41,579 bases of DNA, taken from a bacterium (GTDB taxonomy: Bacteria; Patescibacteriota; Doudnabacteria; UBA920; VMFF01). The translations under genes were made by a program, and so were the position numbers. Shown here in pieces: positions 7,267 through 15,227 of the stretch; position 1 is the first letter of the stretch, and every line of letters starts with the position of its first letter. The notes beneath the pieces were generated by a model. That model saw only the letters and a list, made by a program, of their open reading frames with translations, made no database searches and was not told where the DNA came from. The DNA is taken from NCBI GenBank assembly GCA_021811585.1, contig JAJZOG010000007.1:121459-163037 (forward strand), read 5' to 3'.

Positions 7267-7312
7267 TTAGTGCCACCAATTCACAAGCATTAGTGCCACC
7301 AATTCACAAGCA
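7267..7312. repeat. 23-bp perfect tandem duplication over a stop codon
   Basis: Two exact adjacent copies (7267-7289, 7290-7312), beginning TTAGTGCCACC. The second copy encodes the last residues (VNWWH) and stop of the CAP-domain protein on the minus strand; the first repeats these just past the stop. Confidence 0.95.
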
Positions 7313-8516
7313 GAAGAGTGCTGATTATCAGAAAAATAATCACCAAATGCGATCCGCTTCCGAAAAAGAAATTGCGCGCTTTTCGCTTTATTTCTTTAAA
7401 AGTGTCCACAATGAAGAAAACTATGAACAGCAGGCCAAAGACAATCACAACGTATTTATAAACATTGTACAAATCCGGATTTTGGATTTTGGATCCCAAG
7501 TTGCCAAGTGCTTTCGGGTTTTGCGTGCCTGCAGCAAGTTTTAAATTTGCCAGCGGAACGGTCACGGAGTCCTGTTTTGAATTCGCGCCTTGCGCCGTTA
7601 AAATTAAGTTTTGCTTTTGCCAGTTAAAATATTGGCTGAAGAATAAATCGCCGCTGTAATTTTGTTCGCCGTTGCTCAAAGCATTGCCGGCAGGGACAAG
7701 GGCAATGGAATAATTTGCCACAGCCGCATTTACATTCTGCGCCCCGCCCGCGATGTTTGCCGAAACGTGCAAATCCAGTTCGCCGTTTTTTATATTTGCC
7801 TGTGTTGTTATGGAATTCAAATCAATCCTCGCCAAGGCCGAAGCGCCGGCTGTGTTCAAAGTAAGTTGTCCGATGGGAGGGGCCTGTGTTTTGGCTTGTG
7901 CTGGCGAAGCCGGAGCAGGGGATTTGGTTTGCGCGGGAGGTGTGGAATTTTTTGGGGTTGCCGAAGGGCTTGGTTTCGCGCTTGGCGTTGTTTGCGTTTG
8001 CGCTCGCGCCGGCTTTGCGCCGAAAGTATTGGCAATAGCATCTTCAAATTGTCCGGCATTTGTGTTTCCGAAAGCAACGCCTGCGCCTTGGTCTTGAAAT
8101 TGCTGATTTAAAATATTGCTCCTGTGTTCAGGGCTGTCCATCCATGCGGACATCAGCCCTTCTGTGTTTGGAAAATTAATCGCAAGATTTTCGCCGAGTA
8201 TCGTATAAGGATAATATCCTTCGGCAACGATTTTATCCCAAATGTAATGGCCTTCAGGATCAACGTGGCTGAAATAATTTCTGGCAATCATGTCGGAAGA
8301 TTTATATTGCGCAGCAGCGGCAAGCTCGTTATTGTAATTAAGCGCAGGAATATTTCTGCTGGTTCGTTCCAAATTAACTGCGTCCATAATGTTTTGCGGC
8401 GTTATATCAGATGCGCTTGTGTTATTAAAGCCAAAACCAAGCCGCATTGTAAAAAGCACTAATGCAATTAGCCCCGCGACGCTGTACTTTAAAGAAAGTT
8501 CCTGGATATTACGCAT
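7290..8516 (-). CDS. CAP-domain (SCP/PR-1-like) membrane protein
   Basis: 408 residues from MRNIQELSLKY; an in-frame ATG 33 nt upstream (8549) overlaps a TAAAAT -10-like box, so the internal start is preferred. N-terminal membrane/signal segment (about 9-30), then a CAP domain: LNYNNELAAAAQYKSSDM, NYFSHVDPEG, ILGENLA and WMDSPEHRSNIL are the family motifs, with the histidine/glutamate cavity residues present. After it comes a Pro/Ala/Thr/Lys linker (about 180-225), a region of about 120 residues without recognised domain (AGASALARIDLNS...), a second membrane helix (YVVIVFGLLFIVFFIV), a basic stretch and a last hydrophobic helix (LVIIFLIISTLLLVNWW) at the very C-terminus. CAP proteins act outside the cell; function here unknown. 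Confidence 0.85.
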   Translation of the reverse strand: MRNIQELSLKYSVAGLIALVLFTMRLGFGFNNTSASDITPQNIMDAVNLERTSRNIPALNYNNELAAAAQYKSSDMIARNYFSHVDPEGHYIWDKIVAEGYYPYTILGENLAINFPNTEGLMSAWMDSPEHRSNILNQQFQDQGAGVAFGNTNAGQFEDAIANTFGAKPARAQTQTTPSAKPSPSATPKNSTPPAQTKSPAPASPAQAKTQAPPIGQLTLNTAGASALARIDLNSITTQANIKNGELDLHVSANIAGGAQNVNAAVANYSIALVPAGNALSNGEQNYSGDLFFSQYFNWQKQNLILTAQGANSKQDSVTVPLANLKLAAGTQNPKALGNLGSKIQNPDLYNVYKYVVIVFGLLFIVFFIVDTFKEIKRKARNFFFGSGSHLVIIFLIISTLLLVNWWH

Positions 8517-8599
8517 AAAATATTTCTTTTGGCATTTAAAAAATAGCATATTTTAGGACTTTTTTAAAGGTTTGCCTTAGATTCTTTGCATAATTGTTC

Positions 8600-8646: not shown

Positions 8647-9852
8647 ATGGAAAAAATTTATCCACAAGGCGCAGTTGATTTTTTTGGGCATTTGGGAGTA
8701 TATCCCAGCCAAAATAATGAGGATTTAAATCCCATTGCAGGCACAAATCCAGCTAATTTAAACTTGCCCGTTGAAACGGAGAAAACCGGTTTGAATGGTG
8801 TATTGGATGATGCTGCTGATACCGATAAGATTGTCGGCAAAACGCCCAAAACGCCATTGAAAAAAACCCTTAAGGCAGTTTTGCCATATACGGCAGTATT
8901 TGTCCTGGCTGTTTTATTTTATTTCATCTTTTTCGGCGGGCTTTCACTTTCTGATATGAAAACATGGGTGCCGAAATCCAATCCACAAAACCAGGCGCAA
9001 GCAAGCCAAACACCCGTTGCTTCGGGGCAGCTCTCCGCGTACAATGCTTGGATTAATTCATATTTTTTTGATGTCAGTGATAAAAAAATTCTTGATCCGA
9101 ATTATGATATCTCGGGGAACGGGCTTACGAATTACCAAAAGTTTTTGCTTGGCCTGAATCCCAAAGAAAAAGATACCATGGGCTTGGGCATGACAGATAC
9201 GCAGGCGCTCATAGCCGGCATTGATCCTTTAACAGGCGGGCCTTTAACCAGCGAGCAAAAAAGCATAATCGCGCAAAACATTGATTTGGAAGCAATTGCG
9301 AATAAATTAACTTTGCAATCTTTGGATAAAACTTCCGCGGTTGCCGGAATTTCAACAACAGCAAATCAAAGCGATGATAGGACAGACCCGGTAATAAATT
9401 TAAATCAAACCATACCTGGCGAGCTGGACATACCAAGCTTGAATATCAGCGTTCCGCTTATTTGGGCGCCTGACCCTAATTCAGTGGAAAAAGCCCTGCT
9501 TAACGGCGTCGTGCATTATCCGGGAACTCCGATGCCCGGGCAATTGGGAACTTCTTACATTTCCGGGCACTCTTCAAATTATGCCTGGGTGAAAAGTCCT
9601 TATAACAGAATTTTCGCAAGCATAGACAAGATGAAAATGTATGATGCTTTTTCAATTACTGCGACAGATGCCAACGGCAAGAAAGTGATTTTTCATTATG
9701 CGGTGCGTGGAACTGGGATTTTCGCGGCAAACGACCAAAAGCAGTTTGCAAACATTGGCAAATCCACGGTGGCGCTTTCCACATGCTGGCCAATAGGAAC
9801 TGCTTCTAAACGATATGTTGTTTTTGGACAGCTGACGCAAATAGAAAAATAA
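8647..9852 (+). CDS. Sortase with calcium-repeat-like insert
   Basis: 401 residues. One transmembrane helix (about 80-100, YTAVFVLAVLFYFIFFGG), Gln-rich stalk, then a DPNYDISGNGLTNYQKFLLGLNP segment (about 151-173) resembling dockerin/thrombospondin-type-3 calcium loops, followed by a helical part. The C-terminal sortase barrel (from about 255) has the catalytic His308 in ISGHSSNYAW, Cys380 in LSTCWP and Arg389 in SKRYVVFG. Sortases cut LPxTG-like tails and attach surface proteins. A likely substrate, ending in APKTG, is encoded at 11607-15227. The class cannot be fixed by eye. Confidence 0.9.
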   Translation: MEKIYPQGAVDFFGHLGVYPSQNNEDLNPIAGTNPANLNLPVETEKTGLNGVLDDAADTDKIVGKTPKTPLKKTLKAVLPYTAVFVLAVLFYFIFFGGLSLSDMKTWVPKSNPQNQAQASQTPVASGQLSAYNAWINSYFFDVSDKKILDPNYDISGNGLTNYQKFLLGLNPKEKDTMGLGMTDTQALIAGIDPLTGGPLTSEQKSIIAQNIDLEAIANKLTLQSLDKTSAVAGISTTANQSDDRTDPVINLNQTIPGELDIPSLNISVPLIWAPDPNSVEKALLNGVVHYPGTPMPGQLGTSYISGHSSNYAWVKSPYNRIFASIDKMKMYDAFSITATDANGKKVIFHYAVRGTGIFAANDQKQFANIGKSTVALSTCWPIGTASKRYVVFGQLTQIEK

Positions 9853-10057
9853 AAAATCGCGCGCCTTTGGCAGGCGTGTGCCGGCGTTTGAAGGTTGGCT
9901 TGAGCGAGCTTTCAAATATCAGCGCATGCCTGGCAAGCGGATAATTTCCGAAGCCAGGTTGTTGTTTCAAAAATTAAGGGGGGAAGAAGCTTTTGGCAAC
10001 ACGCCATTGCTTTAATTCCTTCAAGGCAATTTCCACAACCGCGCCGACCAACGGCGC

Positions 10058-10076
10058 TGATCCTTAGGAGGGATCA
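10058..10076 (+). promoter_or_regulatory. Shine-Dalgarno displayed in a hairpin loop
   Basis: TGATCC (10058-10063) pairs with GGATCA (10071-10076); the loop TTAGGAG carries the Shine-Dalgarno, and the start codon's A closes the stem. A second hairpin, GCGCCG/CGGCGC (10041-10057), abuts it. This is one of few strong SDs in the window. Confidence 0.6.
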
Positions 10077-11392
10077 TGATGAAACGATATTTTTTCTTGG
10101 TGGTGGCAACCCTCCTGCTTCTGGCGCCAATGGCCATGGGGCAGAAGCAGGATGTGTTAATAAACCTGCCGGATTACCGGCAGTATAATGACGCAGCAGT
10201 GCAAATGCTGCGTCAGCTGTTAGGTAATTTGGCCGCGCCTTCGGTTTCGGCTGAAGTGCGCAGGCAGGGCGTTCACATCGCTGAGGCGGCCGCGGATGTT
10301 CAATCCGCTGTCGCGGCTCTCGATTCGTTCGAGGCCGCAAATAATATTGCAGAAACAGGTGAGATTGCAATATTTCTCGGACCCATTTATTTAATACAGG
10401 GTCCGAGTGGCGCTACGCTTGAATCCCTCCGCGCGGTGGAAGGTCGCGCGCCCATTTATAAGGGCGGCTTTCATACCGCGCGGCAACTCCATAACCAGGT
10501 GTCTGTACTATATTTTATGCAGACGCTTGAGGGTTGGGGGCTTCCATGCGCGGCACAAACCCAGGCCGCTCTGGAAAATTTTGCCGGGCTATTTGTACGG
10601 CCCTGGAAAATTATCTCCAGGAATTGGGGGCGTTACCGTGTCGGCGTGGCTCCGGGCGGATTTGAATATTATGATCCGTCCCAGGGGTCCATGGCCGTGG
10701 CGCAGGTCAACGTGACCTGCCCGGAAGACCCTGGCATGGTTTTCCGCTACGGGGTGGTAAGTCCGAGCACAAATATACTGCAGCCGTATCAAAAGCTGCA
10801 GTTCTTGTTGCCTCGACGATTACCGCCGCCGGTGCGTGTTGCTGTGGAGCCGCCACCGGTTCCTGCACCAGCACCTGCACCGGTGACAACACCGGTGCCA
10901 CTACTACAACACGCACCGGCGGCTTTCCAGCCAACGTGCGAGGATGCGGTTTACGCCTTGCCGGCTGGAAAAATACAGTCCGGCAAGAAATTAGTAATCC
11001 GACCGCGTGCGGGTTGGCGCGTCCAGGACGTGTTTTTAGTGCCTGGGCGCGATAATGAGGACACCTCCACGCCTTCAACGGTGGAGGGGAATCCTCATGG
11101 GGCGCGGCGGTGGTACATCCGCGCGAGCGGCGTTGGGCAACGGACACTCCTGGTTGATGTGTCCGGGCCCAATGGGCGCACCCTCAGCTGCAATTCCAAC
11201 CTGCAACTAAAAAAACGATCGCTCCTTGTGCCTATACTGGTCGGGACGGTTGTTGCCGGGGGTGCAGTGTTGTTGTGGCTTGCGACCCGTAATGATTACG
11301 GGTCCAAAACCTCGGGACAACCCAATGGGGGGGGTGGGCGGGGGGCCATCCCCGCGCCGGTTAGCGGCCCCGGGTTCTGGCCGCACCATTAG
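10076..11392 (+). CDS. Unrecognised secreted protein with C-terminal membrane helix
   Basis: 438 residues. Clear signal peptide (MMKRYFFLVVATLLLLAPMAMG, cleavage near residue 22). Residues about 23-230 form a domain I do not recognise, with paired cysteines (LPCAAQ, VTCPED). A Pro/Val/Ala-rich linker follows (about 246-280), then a second cysteine-bearing beta-like domain (about 285-375), a membrane helix (about 380-402, LLVPILVGTVVAGGAVLLWLA) and a Gly/Pro-rich tail. Base use is richer in GC and its SD (AGGAGG) stronger than neighbours, and the coding DNA is full of perfect stem-loops. The start may be either of two adjacent ATG codons. No homolog recognised; origin by transfer is possible. 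Confidence 0.75.
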   Translation: MMKRYFFLVVATLLLLAPMAMGQKQDVLINLPDYRQYNDAAVQMLRQLLGNLAAPSVSAEVRRQGVHIAEAAADVQSAVAALDSFEAANNIAETGEIAIFLGPIYLIQGPSGATLESLRAVEGRAPIYKGGFHTARQLHNQVSVLYFMQTLEGWGLPCAAQTQAALENFAGLFVRPWKIISRNWGRYRVGVAPGGFEYYDPSQGSMAVAQVNVTCPEDPGMVFRYGVVSPSTNILQPYQKLQFLLPRRLPPPVRVAVEPPPVPAPAPAPVTTPVPLLQHAPAAFQPTCEDAVYALPAGKIQSGKKLVIRPRAGWRVQDVFLVPGRDNEDTSTPSTVEGNPHGARRWYIRASGVGQRTLLVDVSGPNGRTLSCNSNLQLKKRSLLVPILVGTVVAGGAVLLWLATRNDYGSKTSGQPNGGGGRGAIPAPVSGPGFWPHH

Positions 11393-11407
11393 CTCTTCAA
11401 AAATTTT

Positions 11408-11439
11408 GTTGGGAGCAGGCCTAAAAACTTGCTCCCAAC
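11408..11439 (+). terminator. Terminator-like hairpin
   Basis: Perfect 10-bp stem GTTGGGAGCA/TGCTCCCAAC with a 12-nt loop, 15 nt past the stop codon, followed by CCATTTTC. The weak T-run makes termination efficiency uncertain. Confidence 0.6.
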
Positions 11440-11537
11440 CCATTTTCATAAAAACCAACAATAAAACCAACAATTAGTTTTCAAAAAGCAGTTAATAATT
11501 TTACGCAGTGTAAAAAAATTATAAATTATTTATTGCT

Positions 11538-11561
11538 TTTTGCCGGCTAAATGCGGCAAAA
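11538..11561 (+). other. Hairpin upstream of the DUF11 protein gene
   Basis: TTTTGCCG/CGGCAAAA, 8 bp, loop of 8. It lies within the AT-rich gap 11440-11606, which has no clear promoter consensus. May be an operator or part of the leader. Confidence 0.4.
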
Positions 11562-11606
11562 TTAAACTTAACAATTATTTAATCCAAGGGGAGTAAAAAA
11601 TAATAT

Positions 11607-14600
11607 ATGCAGAAAATATTGCATACCATAAAGAATAGACGTTCATTGCCTTTGCTTTTTGCAGCGGTAATGGCTTTGGCTGTGTTTGCAAACGTGCCAG
11701 CCGCGAAATCGGATAATTGCCCGGGTTTTGTGCCGCAAACGCCGGCCTTTGATTGGTGGCCGCTCACATATAATCCGAATGCCACTTGCGCGGATTTTGC
11801 ATTAATTGACGCGCGCAACCTGTCCAGTAATGATACTCGCGACAGCAGATACGCGCTTTCGCAATCCGAGCACGACGCCGGAATCCATGCAGGGATAGGC
11901 GATACTGTCCGCGTCTCCATTTATTTTCATAATGGAGCATCAGACCAAATTTCCAGAAGCCAGACCACAGCGCACAATGTCCAAATCTCCTCAAGTTATT
12001 CCACAGATCCCACGGATTACCATGTTATTTCAGGCGGAATTTCCGCATCCAATGCTCCGGGCGTAACAGATGTGGGGCATGGCGGCCCTATTAGCGTGCA
12101 CACGGATGTCCCCACGGTTTTGCAGTATGTTCCAGGCACTTCAGAGCTTTGCATTTCATACCAGGCAGCAAAAGAGCGCGGAGCTGATCTTACAAAAACA
12201 TGCGGCATGTCCGGCGACGGCTTGCCGAAAATAGCTGTTCCCATTGGAGACGGAGTTGCCAATGGCAGTGTTGGAATTGGCGATATTAAAGCATGTTGGA
12301 CATATTCCGGCACTTTAATTTATTCCGTGCAGGTTTTGGCAGCCACTTCAACCGGCAGCCAATCCTCTTTGGTAATTTCAAAAACAGTGCGCGACCTTTC
12401 TAATAACGAGCCAAACTACGGTCCCTCGGTGAATGCGCACCCTGGAGACAAGCTTGATTTTCAAATAACAGTCGCGGATTCAAGCTCAACGGCAATTGCG
12501 CAGAATGTAAATGTTGAGGATGCATTACCCTTTGGTTTGCAATATGCCGGCGGAGATCAAACTATTTTGAGTTCTACCGGAGAAAGCATTGGTTCCCTAA
12601 ACCCGGGCCAATCGCAAACTTTCAATTTTACAGCCACTGTTATTCAGGCCGCATCCGGCACCATTACCAATACCGCAAGCGCAAGCGCAACCAATGCTGC
12701 CAGCGTGAGCGGCAGCGCGAATATAAATGTTCAACCCCAACCGGTTCTGCCTGTAACAATCTCAGGCACAAATTTAGTGCGGGATATTGCAAATAACGAG
12801 CCGAATTATGGCCCGTCAGTTACTGCGCGCCCCGGCGACCAAGTTGATTTTCAGCTTAATATTACCAATACAAGTTCAAGCGCGGCCGCAAATAATGTCG
12901 TTGTCACAGATACCTTGCCTTCTAATTTCTCGCTCGTTAACGGTTCTGCGGATCCGTCGCTATTTGCTTCGGGCTTAAATATCGGCAACATCGCACCGAG
13001 CCAAACCTATACCATAAATTTTTCGGCAATTACTCCGCAGGTTGCAAACGAGGTTACCGAATCCAATAGCGCGACAGCAGTGGGATCAAACACCAATTCT
13101 ATTTTAATGTCCGCTGTTGTTATTGTTGCTCCTGTTCCAGCCATTACAACCACGTCTTTAAGTTTGGCAAAACAGGTGCGTGATATTGCGAATAACGAAC
13201 CAAACTTTGGTTCTTCCGTAAATGCTCGCCCCGGCGACCAGGTTGATTTCCAGATTGTGGTGACGAACACAGGGCAGGCAACTGCAAACAATGTGGTTAT
13301 AATGGATACTTTGCCGCAGGGTTTGGGAATGATTTTCCCCAGCTCAGTGAATTCTTCTCTGTTCACCACAGGGCTTAACATAGGGAATTTGGCGCAGGGC
13401 CAGAGTGAGACATTTAATTTTTCAAATACCGTGAACTCATCGGATACGGCGCAATCCCTTGTTAACAATGCTTCTGCAAGCGCATCCAATGCGCAGACAG
13501 CTACTGCAAATGCGATAGTGAATGTTGTTCCTCTTCAGCAAAATTTGCCGATTACGATTACAAGCACGAATTTGGTGCGGGATGTTGCCAATAACGAGCC
13601 GTCATTCGGACCTTCAGTGATAGCGTTGCCGGGCGACCAGGTTGATTTCCAGCTCGCAGTTACAAATACAAGTTACACAGGCACTGCCAATAACGTTGTT
13701 GCCACAGATACTTTGCCTTCGGGATTCAGTTTGGTGAATGGCTCGGTTGATCCGTCCTTGTTCTCCACCGGCGTGCAATTGGGCAATATTGCCCCGGGAC
13801 AAACCGAAACAATCAACTTTTCCGCGATTGCCCCTCAGGCGCAATCAACGCAATCATTTACGGATAATTTTGCTGCAGTTGGTGCCAATACAAATACCAC
13901 AACAGCTTCTTCTTCGGTTATGGTTTTAGCCACTCCTCCGCCTTCATCCGGTTCCTTAAGCTTAACCAAACAGGTCCGGGACATATCAAATAATCAGCCG
14001 AATTTTGGTTCTTCCGTAAATGCTCGCCCCGGCGACCAGGTTGATTTCCAGATTGTGGTGACGAACACAGGGCAGGCAACTGCAAACAATGTGAATTTAA
14101 CGGACAACATGCCATTCGGGCTTTCGTCCCTGAATTACAACACCGCTTCGGCGTCAGATAATATCGGCAATCTTTATCCCGGACAGTCGGCAACATGGAA
14201 TCTTTCGGCAATTGTCGGGCAAGCGGTTTCACAGTCCTCAACATTAACCAATGCGGCTTTTGCAACTTCATCAAATGCTCCTACGGTAACCGCAACCGCG
14301 ACAGTTTATGTTGCCCAGCCGTTTGCGCCCGGAAATATTTCCATCACAAAATATGTGCGGGATGTAACCCAGGGGCAGAGCGCTTTCCAATCAAGCATCA
14401 ATGCTAATAATGGCGATACGCTGCAGTATCAGATAACAGCGACAAACACAGGGAGCGGCACTGTTTCGAATTTGAACATTTCCGATTCTCTGCCGGGCGG
14501 CGTGAATTTCACGCCAAATTCCTTTAACATAAATACCGGAACTTTCAATTCGGCATTCAATTCTTCTGTAACAGTGCCGACCTTGTATCAAAACCAAAGT

Positions 14601-15227
14601 GTTGTAATTACTTATTCGGTGCAGGTGAACCAGGCCAATGGTGCAATAATCAATACGGCAAGCGTTACAGGCAACCCTAATTTGTATGCCAGCGCGCAGG
14701 CGGTTGTAAACGTTTTCTCCGCCGCGCAGGCAGTGAATTTGGTTCTTTCCAAATCCGCTTTCAACGATACCCAAAACGTTGATGCCACAACCGTGAATGC
14801 CAACAGGGAGGACTACATAACTTATACCTTGAATGTTACCAATAACAGTTCTTCCACCGCGCAGAATTATGTGATTTCGGATGATCTGAGCAATGTCTTG
14901 AATAACGCCGGCATGGTTGATAACGGCGGCGGTACAATGGTAGGCAACACCATAACCTGGCCGGCTCAAAATATTGCCGCAGGTTCATCTGTCCAGGAAA
15001 AATTTAAAGTCAGGGTGAATTATTATTTGCCGACAAATACCCAGGTTTTCTTGGTGAATACTTTTGGGAATACGGTGAGCATCAGGGTTAATGTGCCGCA
15101 GGTTTTAGGCGCAATTACAGCTCCGAAAACAGGGGCGTCTGCTGATGTTGGTTTTGCTTTCGCGGGATTGTTTACGGCAGCTTTTGCGGTGGCAAAGAGA
15201 AAATTGAAATTTAAAAGCCGCAGATAA
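11607..15227 (+). CDS. Giant DUF11-repeat surface protein with sortase signal
   Basis: 1206 residues. Signal peptide (1-34, ends near PAAKS), a unique N-terminal region to about 250 with paired cysteines, then seven tandem DUF11-type beta domains of about 125 residues, each opening with a VRDxxNNEPNxGxSVxAxPGDQVDFQ-like strand and containing NNVxxTDTLPxG and an xNTASA-type end. The C-terminus is a sorting signal: A1172-P-K-T-G1176, hydrophobic stretch, then KRKLKFKSRR. It should be exported and linked to the envelope by the sortase encoded upstream; repeats give a long stalk. Repeats 3 and 5 share a 90-bp identical DNA block. An isolated AAGGGGAG lies about 16 nt before ATG. Confidence 0.9.
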   Translation: MQKILHTIKNRRSLPLLFAAVMALAVFANVPAAKSDNCPGFVPQTPAFDWWPLTYNPNATCADFALIDARNLSSNDTRDSRYALSQSEHDAGIHAGIGDTVRVSIYFHNGASDQISRSQTTAHNVQISSSYSTDPTDYHVISGGISASNAPGVTDVGHGGPISVHTDVPTVLQYVPGTSELCISYQAAKERGADLTKTCGMSGDGLPKIAVPIGDGVANGSVGIGDIKACWTYSGTLIYSVQVLAATSTGSQSSLVISKTVRDLSNNEPNYGPSVNAHPGDKLDFQITVADSSSTAIAQNVNVEDALPFGLQYAGGDQTILSSTGESIGSLNPGQSQTFNFTATVIQAASGTITNTASASATNAASVSGSANINVQPQPVLPVTISGTNLVRDIANNEPNYGPSVTARPGDQVDFQLNITNTSSSAAANNVVVTDTLPSNFSLVNGSADPSLFASGLNIGNIAPSQTYTINFSAITPQVANEVTESNSATAVGSNTNSILMSAVVIVAPVPAITTTSLSLAKQVRDIANNEPNFGSSVNARPGDQVDFQIVVTNTGQATANNVVIMDTLPQGLGMIFPSSVNSSLFTTGLNIGNLAQGQSETFNFSNTVNSSDTAQSLVNNASASASNAQTATANAIVNVVPLQQNLPITITSTNLVRDVANNEPSFGPSVIALPGDQVDFQLAVTNTSYTGTANNVVATDTLPSGFSLVNGSVDPSLFSTGVQLGNIAPGQTETINFSAIAPQAQSTQSFTDNFAAVGANTNTTTASSSVMVLATPPPSSGSLSLTKQVRDISNNQPNFGSSVNARPGDQVDFQIVVTNTGQATANNVNLTDNMPFGLSSLNYNTASASDNIGNLYPGQSATWNLSAIVGQAVSQSSTLTNAAFATSSNAPTVTATATVYVAQPFAPGNISITKYVRDVTQGQSAFQSSINANNGDTLQYQITATNTGSGTVSNLNISDSLPGGVNFTPNSFNINTGTFNSAFNSSVTVPTLYQNQSVVITYSVQVNQANGAIINTASVTGNPNLYASAQAVVNVFSAAQAVNLVLSKSAFNDTQNVDATTVNANREDYITYTLNVTNNSSSTAQNYVISDDLSNVLNNAGMVDNGGGTMVGNTITWPAQNIAAGSSVQEKFKVRVNYYLPTNTQVFLVNTFGNTVSIRVNVPQVLGAITAPKTGASADVGFAFAGLFTAAFAVAKRKLKFKSRR
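13206..13295. repeat. 90-bp exact repeat, copy 1
   Basis: Identical over 90 bp to 14004-14093, inside DUF11 repeat 3. Flanking sequence diverges abruptly, so the match is local rather than a whole-domain duplicate. Confidence 0.95.
14004..14093. repeat. 90-bp exact repeat, copy 2
   Basis: Second copy, in DUF11 repeat 5, 798 bp downstream in the same reading frame as copy 1. Confidence 0.95.

Follow-up and report, generated by a model that had tools for sequence, protein, structure and literature searches.

The gene at 10076-11392 (forward strand) of the window, by which we mean the whole 41,579-nt stretch of DNA analysed, is packed with local hairpins and lies in a conserved slot between a sortase gene and a surface protein gene. 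The folding excess is independent of protein, GC and dinucleotide content, recurs in the mostly unrelated genes that occupy this slot in other genomes, and is sense-biased in these genes as a class; two homologous occupants partially share their base pairs. The best explanation, which we consider on balance probable, is a real protein-coding gene for a secreted, fast-evolving, adhesin-type protein in a slot whose mRNAs are folded through selection on the mRNA, with the long stems of this particular gene introduced via template switching.

The window is the end of a 163-kb contig from a genome of 0.75 Mb in 19 contigs. The left border of the slot is a sortase gene (8647-9852, forward strand; PF04203 Sortase, E 2e-17; the best NCBIfam model, class D sortase, scores below its cut-off), and the right border is the gene of a 1206-aa, isopeptide-forming DUF11-type surface protein (11607-15227, forward strand), which has DUF11 repeats and isopeptide domains and is not unusually folded (d -1.4, where d is the folding excess in kcal per 120 nt). 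Adjoining the sortase locus, the minus strand encodes a YkwD/CAP-type domain protein (7290-8549; NCBIfam spore_YkwD, E 6e-23, below cut-off). The hyper-folded ORF between the two borders encodes a protein of 438 aa with a predicted signal peptide, a Pro-rich linker, a C-terminal hydrophobic helix and a Gly/Pro tail. Its GC content is 0.58 in a genome of about 0.46, and it is present once in that genome. The protein (P0001) had no homologue in its own genome, genus, family, order or class or in GTDB contigs, and no match in viral contigs, phages, PDB, Pfam or NCBIfam. A blastn search of plasmids gave a single match of 24 bases, attributable to chance, and Rfam covariance models did not match positions 9000-12000 up to E = 1. 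An AlphaFold2 model computed without an alignment was unusable (pLDDT 41).

Folding was predicted at 37 °C with a single energy model; genes were called as longest ORFs, and several start codons are uncertain. The mean minimum free energy of 120-nt windows across ORF 10076-11392 was -49.9 kcal/mol, compared to -38.7 kcal/mol in synonymous-codon permutations, none of which (0 of 200) was as low. The folding that had been noted from the sequence alone is thereby confirmed, with d about -11.1 under this null and -11.9 against dinucleotide shuffles of each window. Synonymous and codon-order shuffles had the same mean, without a visible imprint of amino-acid order. Perfect stems of at least 7 bp (loop 3-30) numbered 17, against 3-4 in synonymous-codon permutations, those of at least 8 bp 10, against 1.2 expected, and arms of 9-11 bp 7, against some 0.25-0.3. 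In a near-whole-genome scan of 773 ORFs, this one came first both in stem excess and in folding residual weighted by length, and nothing in the 0.75 Mb rivalled it over its length. Within the window, 33 genes were tested, and the second most folded reached a z of -3.6. The original prediction had let the folding begin at the base after the sortase gene; the 5' leader (9858-10075) shows no significant folding (z -1.5), and the excess sits in the ORF.

Three simple causes were considered and dropped. Tandem protein repeats are confined to a Pro/Ala stretch, plasmid genes with a GC content of 0.60 show a d of only -0.66/-0.50 (sense/antisense), and the excess survives the dinucleotide null.

The leader carries the hairpin GCGCCG-ACCAA-CGGCGC (10041-10057, forward strand, like all hairpins listed here), recognised in the sequence and in the fold of -35 to +15. 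In predicted folds it is followed by a hairpin at 10058-10076 that partly buries the AGGAGG Shine-Dalgarno (SD) sequence (10066-10071) and the A of the start codon. The SD has a paired probability of 0.42 and the slot class a mean of 0.46, so that SD occlusion is nothing special here. Within the ORF, perfect stems occur at 10113-10152 (11 bp, loop 18), 10166-10183 (7 bp, loop 4), 10189-10215 (10 bp, loop 7), 10343-10374 and 10376-10407 (each 9 bp, loop 14), 10702-10720 (8 bp, loop 3) and 10777-10802 (8 bp, loop 10). Further downstream lie a stem at 10924-10971 (9 bp, loop 30) and one overlapping it at 10957-10987 (8 bp, loop 15), two nested 7-bp stems (11055-11098 and 11064-11087), and stems at 11141-11165 (7 bp, loop 11) and 11284-11304 (9 bp, loop 3). 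Positions 10854-10919 form one CACCGGTG-rich stretch that lies in the Pro/Ala-rich linker and holds mutually exclusive stems, the best of them at 10877-10898 (9 bp, loop 4). This stretch is the source of 4 of the 17 stems, partly forced by its repetitive codons; for these four, the earlier statement that no repeats in the protein would force the stems is not quite right. The six stems first given as examples were all present, to within 1 nt. The accompanying chance expectation of 0.24 was too low, the value with codons kept being 0.83. Behind the ORF, a terminator-like hairpin of 12 pairs with a weak T tail occupies 11408-11439; counts of such sites in the region are not above those in shuffled sequence.

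Relatives of the 1206-aa surface protein were present in 42 of 49 genomes of the order, the target genome counted. Many of these genomes have a GC-rich (0.52-0.62), usually SD-led signal-peptide gene between sortase and surface gene; in three, a GC-rich signal-peptide gene lies beside the surface gene on the opposite strand. The synteny of the slot is kept across families of the order. Its occupants are mostly unrelated in sequence, and the target has 18-20% identity to family members, a figure from global alignment that is not evidence of homology. With its conserved position and mostly unrelated occupants, the slot is hypervariable, and the target is the gene that fills it here rather than an isolated orphan. 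Since some occupants match collagen-like, PKD, weak DUF11 or weak OMP-barrel models, an adhesin-type surface role of the occupants is likely, as judged from sequence. Among the occupants L164 9348-10580, L165 9038-10315 (minus), L168 8532-9869 (minus) and L177 9584-10945, collagen-like repeats occur, as do weak matches to an OMP beta-barrel and to PKD. In several relatives the occupant has a Gram-negative barrel-like C terminus, unexpected in a lineage with small genomes that presumably has no outer membrane.

As a class, the slot genes were represented by 21 genes from 16 genomes, chosen by position, GC, SD and signal peptide and never by folding. Slots lacking an evident candidate (e.g. G015, G037 and G044) and genomes with no recognised sortase (G024, G029 and G032) were omitted, and the G005 gene was entered by hand. 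Their d was -4.58 on the sense and -2.93 on the antisense strand, and 85 flanking genes had -0.97/-1.03 (p 1.5e-9); with the target left out the values were -4.24/-2.61 (p 4e-9). The difference sense minus antisense was -1.66 +/- 0.30 in slot genes and +0.07 +/- 0.11 in flanking genes, and the dinucleotide null gave the same picture of the class. Because choosing genes by their sense folding biases a sense/antisense comparison, such a test was discarded and redone on sets chosen by SD or position. Folding excess was 0.08 at the start codon (position 0) of slot genes and often -1 to -2 further in. Unfolded occupants exist as well (G016, -0.2; one G010 gene, -1.2). Controls were low throughout: besides the plasmid genes, E. 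coli genes gave -1.25/-0.86, the neighbouring surface proteins -1.05/-0.86, and housekeeping genes -1.3/-1.15. The housekeeping controls EF-Tu, GroEL and RNA polymerase are presumably among the most highly expressed genes. As the controls lack the excess, base composition, surface location and presumed high expression are insufficient on their own. One surface-type gene stood apart from the other surface proteins tested, that of a 1206-aa protein in G001 (C2:42190-45810, minus), with a significant d of -5.6 (z -9.9).

The sense-strand excess bears on the level at which folding arises. Selection on RNA should produce it, and a DNA-level process should be symmetric unless strand-biased mutation follows; part of the sense bias could also be imitated by a C-to-T bias linked to transcription. 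The antisense strand of the target is folded too (-9.2 against -11.1 on the sense strand; sense minus antisense, z about -2.3), so its folding alone does not point to RNA. Interrupted helices of the 12 most folded genes contained 9 G.U and 8 A.C mismatches, small counts without a preference.

The occupants of G002 and G003, members of the same genus, are clearly homologous, with 73% identity in protein and DNA. Their identity at codon positions 1/2/3 is 0.78/0.85/0.57, and that of the sortase 0.86/0.89/0.55. Positions 1 and 2 are thus kept over position 3, which argues that the protein is under selection, looser than that on the sortase. Together with the secreted and partly adhesin-like nature of the occupants, this speaks against the idea that the protein is a by-product of a self-organised RNA. 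Against a null in which codon columns were permuted within amino-acid classes, the G002/G003 consensus folded better than permuted (z -3.6; sortase control -0.8), and 119 predicted pairs were common to both, where 62 were expected (z 3.1). Compensated pairs, such as those in TGGCAT/ATGCCA versus TAGCGT/ACGCTA, numbered 5 where chance would give 2 (z 1.8). The proposed search for homologues and compensatory changes thus yielded none for the target itself, and for this one sequence pair it gave shared pairs and a weaker compensatory signal, which favours a structure conserved between the two occupants.

The alternative that survives best is purely mutational. Short-range template switching (quasipalindrome correction) in DNA replication would create perfect stems that pile up under weak protein constraint, and the RNA structure would be functionless; we regard this as rather unlikely. 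In its favour, the excess lies mainly in the long perfect arms of 9-11 bp (7 against about 0.25), helices with one interruption number only 5, and the near symmetry of the strands in the target is what DNA-level mutation would also give. Perfect inverted repeats are mildly over-represented in the target genome, the more so the longer the arm; in conserved genes the excess goes from x1.35 at 6 bp to x2.3 at 10 bp. Conserved genes of G000 show the excess of 7-8 bp arms most strongly in the register that sets third codon positions opposite one another (x1.7-2.2 against x1.0-1.4). This register is the one to be expected from one-way copying of a constrained coding sequence and is possibly a footprint of template switching. 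A single template-switch event is known to yield a perfect hairpin (PMC8794818). The template-switch hairpins of Monttinen and Loytynoja (2022, PMC8794818) are likewise perfect short-loop stems that single events can create, although they were described in RNA genes with ancestral reconstruction, and the present case is a protein-coding gene without relatives close enough for that. Many perfect inverted repeats within functional coding genes are likewise known from the mitochondrial coding palindromes of nematomorphs (PMC6649704), which reach up to 284 bp in genes of conserved proteins, whereas the target has stems of 7-11 bp in the gene of a hypervariable secreted protein.

Several results stand against a mutational origin without function. 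The slot class is sense-biased by 5 standard errors, and flanking genes are not. The occupants of G004 and G001 are folded with little or no perfect-stem excess, that of G004 (-6.9/-2.3 sense/antisense) with zero perfect stems of at least 7 bp. The target retains a z of -3 when its perfect hairpins are set aside, and most noncoding DNA elsewhere in the genome folds much more weakly (median d -2.5). The long stems of the target likely stem from template switching, and the folding of the slot class likely from selection at the RNA level; this last step is drawn from the slot class and not from the target alone.

High expression could select for folded mRNA in general, with the target as an extreme example; this explanation appears improbable. 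The target has a strong SD, and the 34 genes of its genome with an AGGAGG SD, a set chosen blind to folding, were more folded than conserved genes (-4.55 vs -1.33; p 2e-8), with a slight sense bias (-0.66 +/- 0.26); for 29 of the 34, the search of relatives gave no match. The SD-led genes without a match in the sister genome G001 were GC-rich, folded (-2.6) and sense-biased (-1.12 +/- 0.28). However, SD-led genes overall were no more folded than other genes in G023, which belongs to another family, and folding as a trait of all SD-led genes was dropped on this result. EF-Tu, GroEL, RNA polymerase and the neighbouring surface protein, all presumed to be highly expressed, are not hyper-folded either. 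A mild folding excess was present genome-wide in all genomes examined here, in line with the excess that Peeri and Tuller (2020, PMC7063772) reported for coding sequences throughout the tree of life. Common to that study and ours are coding sequences that beat their synonymous randomisations and have no excess at the very start codon. Theirs is a profile of most genes and phyla, whereas ours amounts to about five times the background in one kind of gene and one slot, with one gene strongest.

Other hairpin-rich loci were noticed in passing. Hyper-folded genes without a match in relatives and with an excess of -8.7 to -10 kcal per 120 nt are L035 13714-14142 (minus), G000:C7:109053-109652 and G000:C5:15674-16294 (minus), the latter two AGGAGG-led. 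About 500 nt of seemingly noncoding DNA at L022 1020-1530 (G000:C2:21020-21530) contain dense nested perfect hairpins; this region lies -19.9 kcal per 120 nt from dinucleotide shuffles, far beyond 23S rRNA, and has no Rfam match. It is followed by a promoter-like TTGACA/TATAGT and a 91-aa gene (ORF 1810-2085) that is likewise built of hairpins.

Very unlikely, in our estimate, is an RNA-first device, in which the folded message and not a protein family is conserved and secreted genes entering the slot are driven to hyper-folding by a special handling of their mRNA, such as its retention, localisation or even export by the cell. The features of some occupants that recall Gram-negative bacteria, among them OMP-barrel-like ends and lipoprotein signals as well as high GC and a canonical SD, would fit host-cell expression.

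The likeness to RNA phages in the original prediction stood in the size of the excess and failed in its form. In the same test, genes of MS2 (Leviviricetes) gave -7.6, -8.8 and -9.3 kcal per 120 nt, so that the comparison with the target's -11.1 is numerically fair; MS2 has no perfect stems of at least 9 bp, unlike the target with its 7 of 9-11 bp, and is a replicating RNA genome, the target a chromosomal gene. Capture by the chromosome of a mobile element made of RNA or single-stranded DNA, whether levivirus-like or of another kind, would match this folding strength, the atypical GC and the missing homologues, but is scarcely credible for a single-copy gene without matches in phage or viral collections, with long perfect stems foreign to MS2, in a slot that is syntenic across families and filled with secreted, adhesin-like proteins under protein-level selection. 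No replicase or reverse transcriptase was noticed either, the neighbours being sortase and surface protein genes.

Of the meanings first proposed, the structured mRNA is the one that gained support, through folding on the scale of single-stranded RNA phages and the sense bias of the class. Under the explanation that we favour, the mRNA of whichever gene fills the slot in this lineage would tend to form dense local hairpins on the sense strand, with the target as the extreme. The folding would be kept by selection on the mRNA, most likely for a long-lived message and/or for ribosome pacing during synthesis of the secreted protein, and the strong SD may secure initiation on the folded message. 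The exceptionally long perfect stems of the target probably arose by short-range template switching that a tolerant protein allowed.

The slot, with its sortase, variable secreted gene and surface protein, resembles a hypervariable surface-adhesin locus of a small-genome lineage and deserves a study of its own. In coding regions, folding normally shows up as no more than a faint statistical trend across the genome. In this slot it reaches the strength seen in an RNA virus, is confined to one kind of gene position, and outlasts the protein sequence. The slot gene thus offers a concrete, recodable system for asking whether structure in coding regions is selected and what it does.
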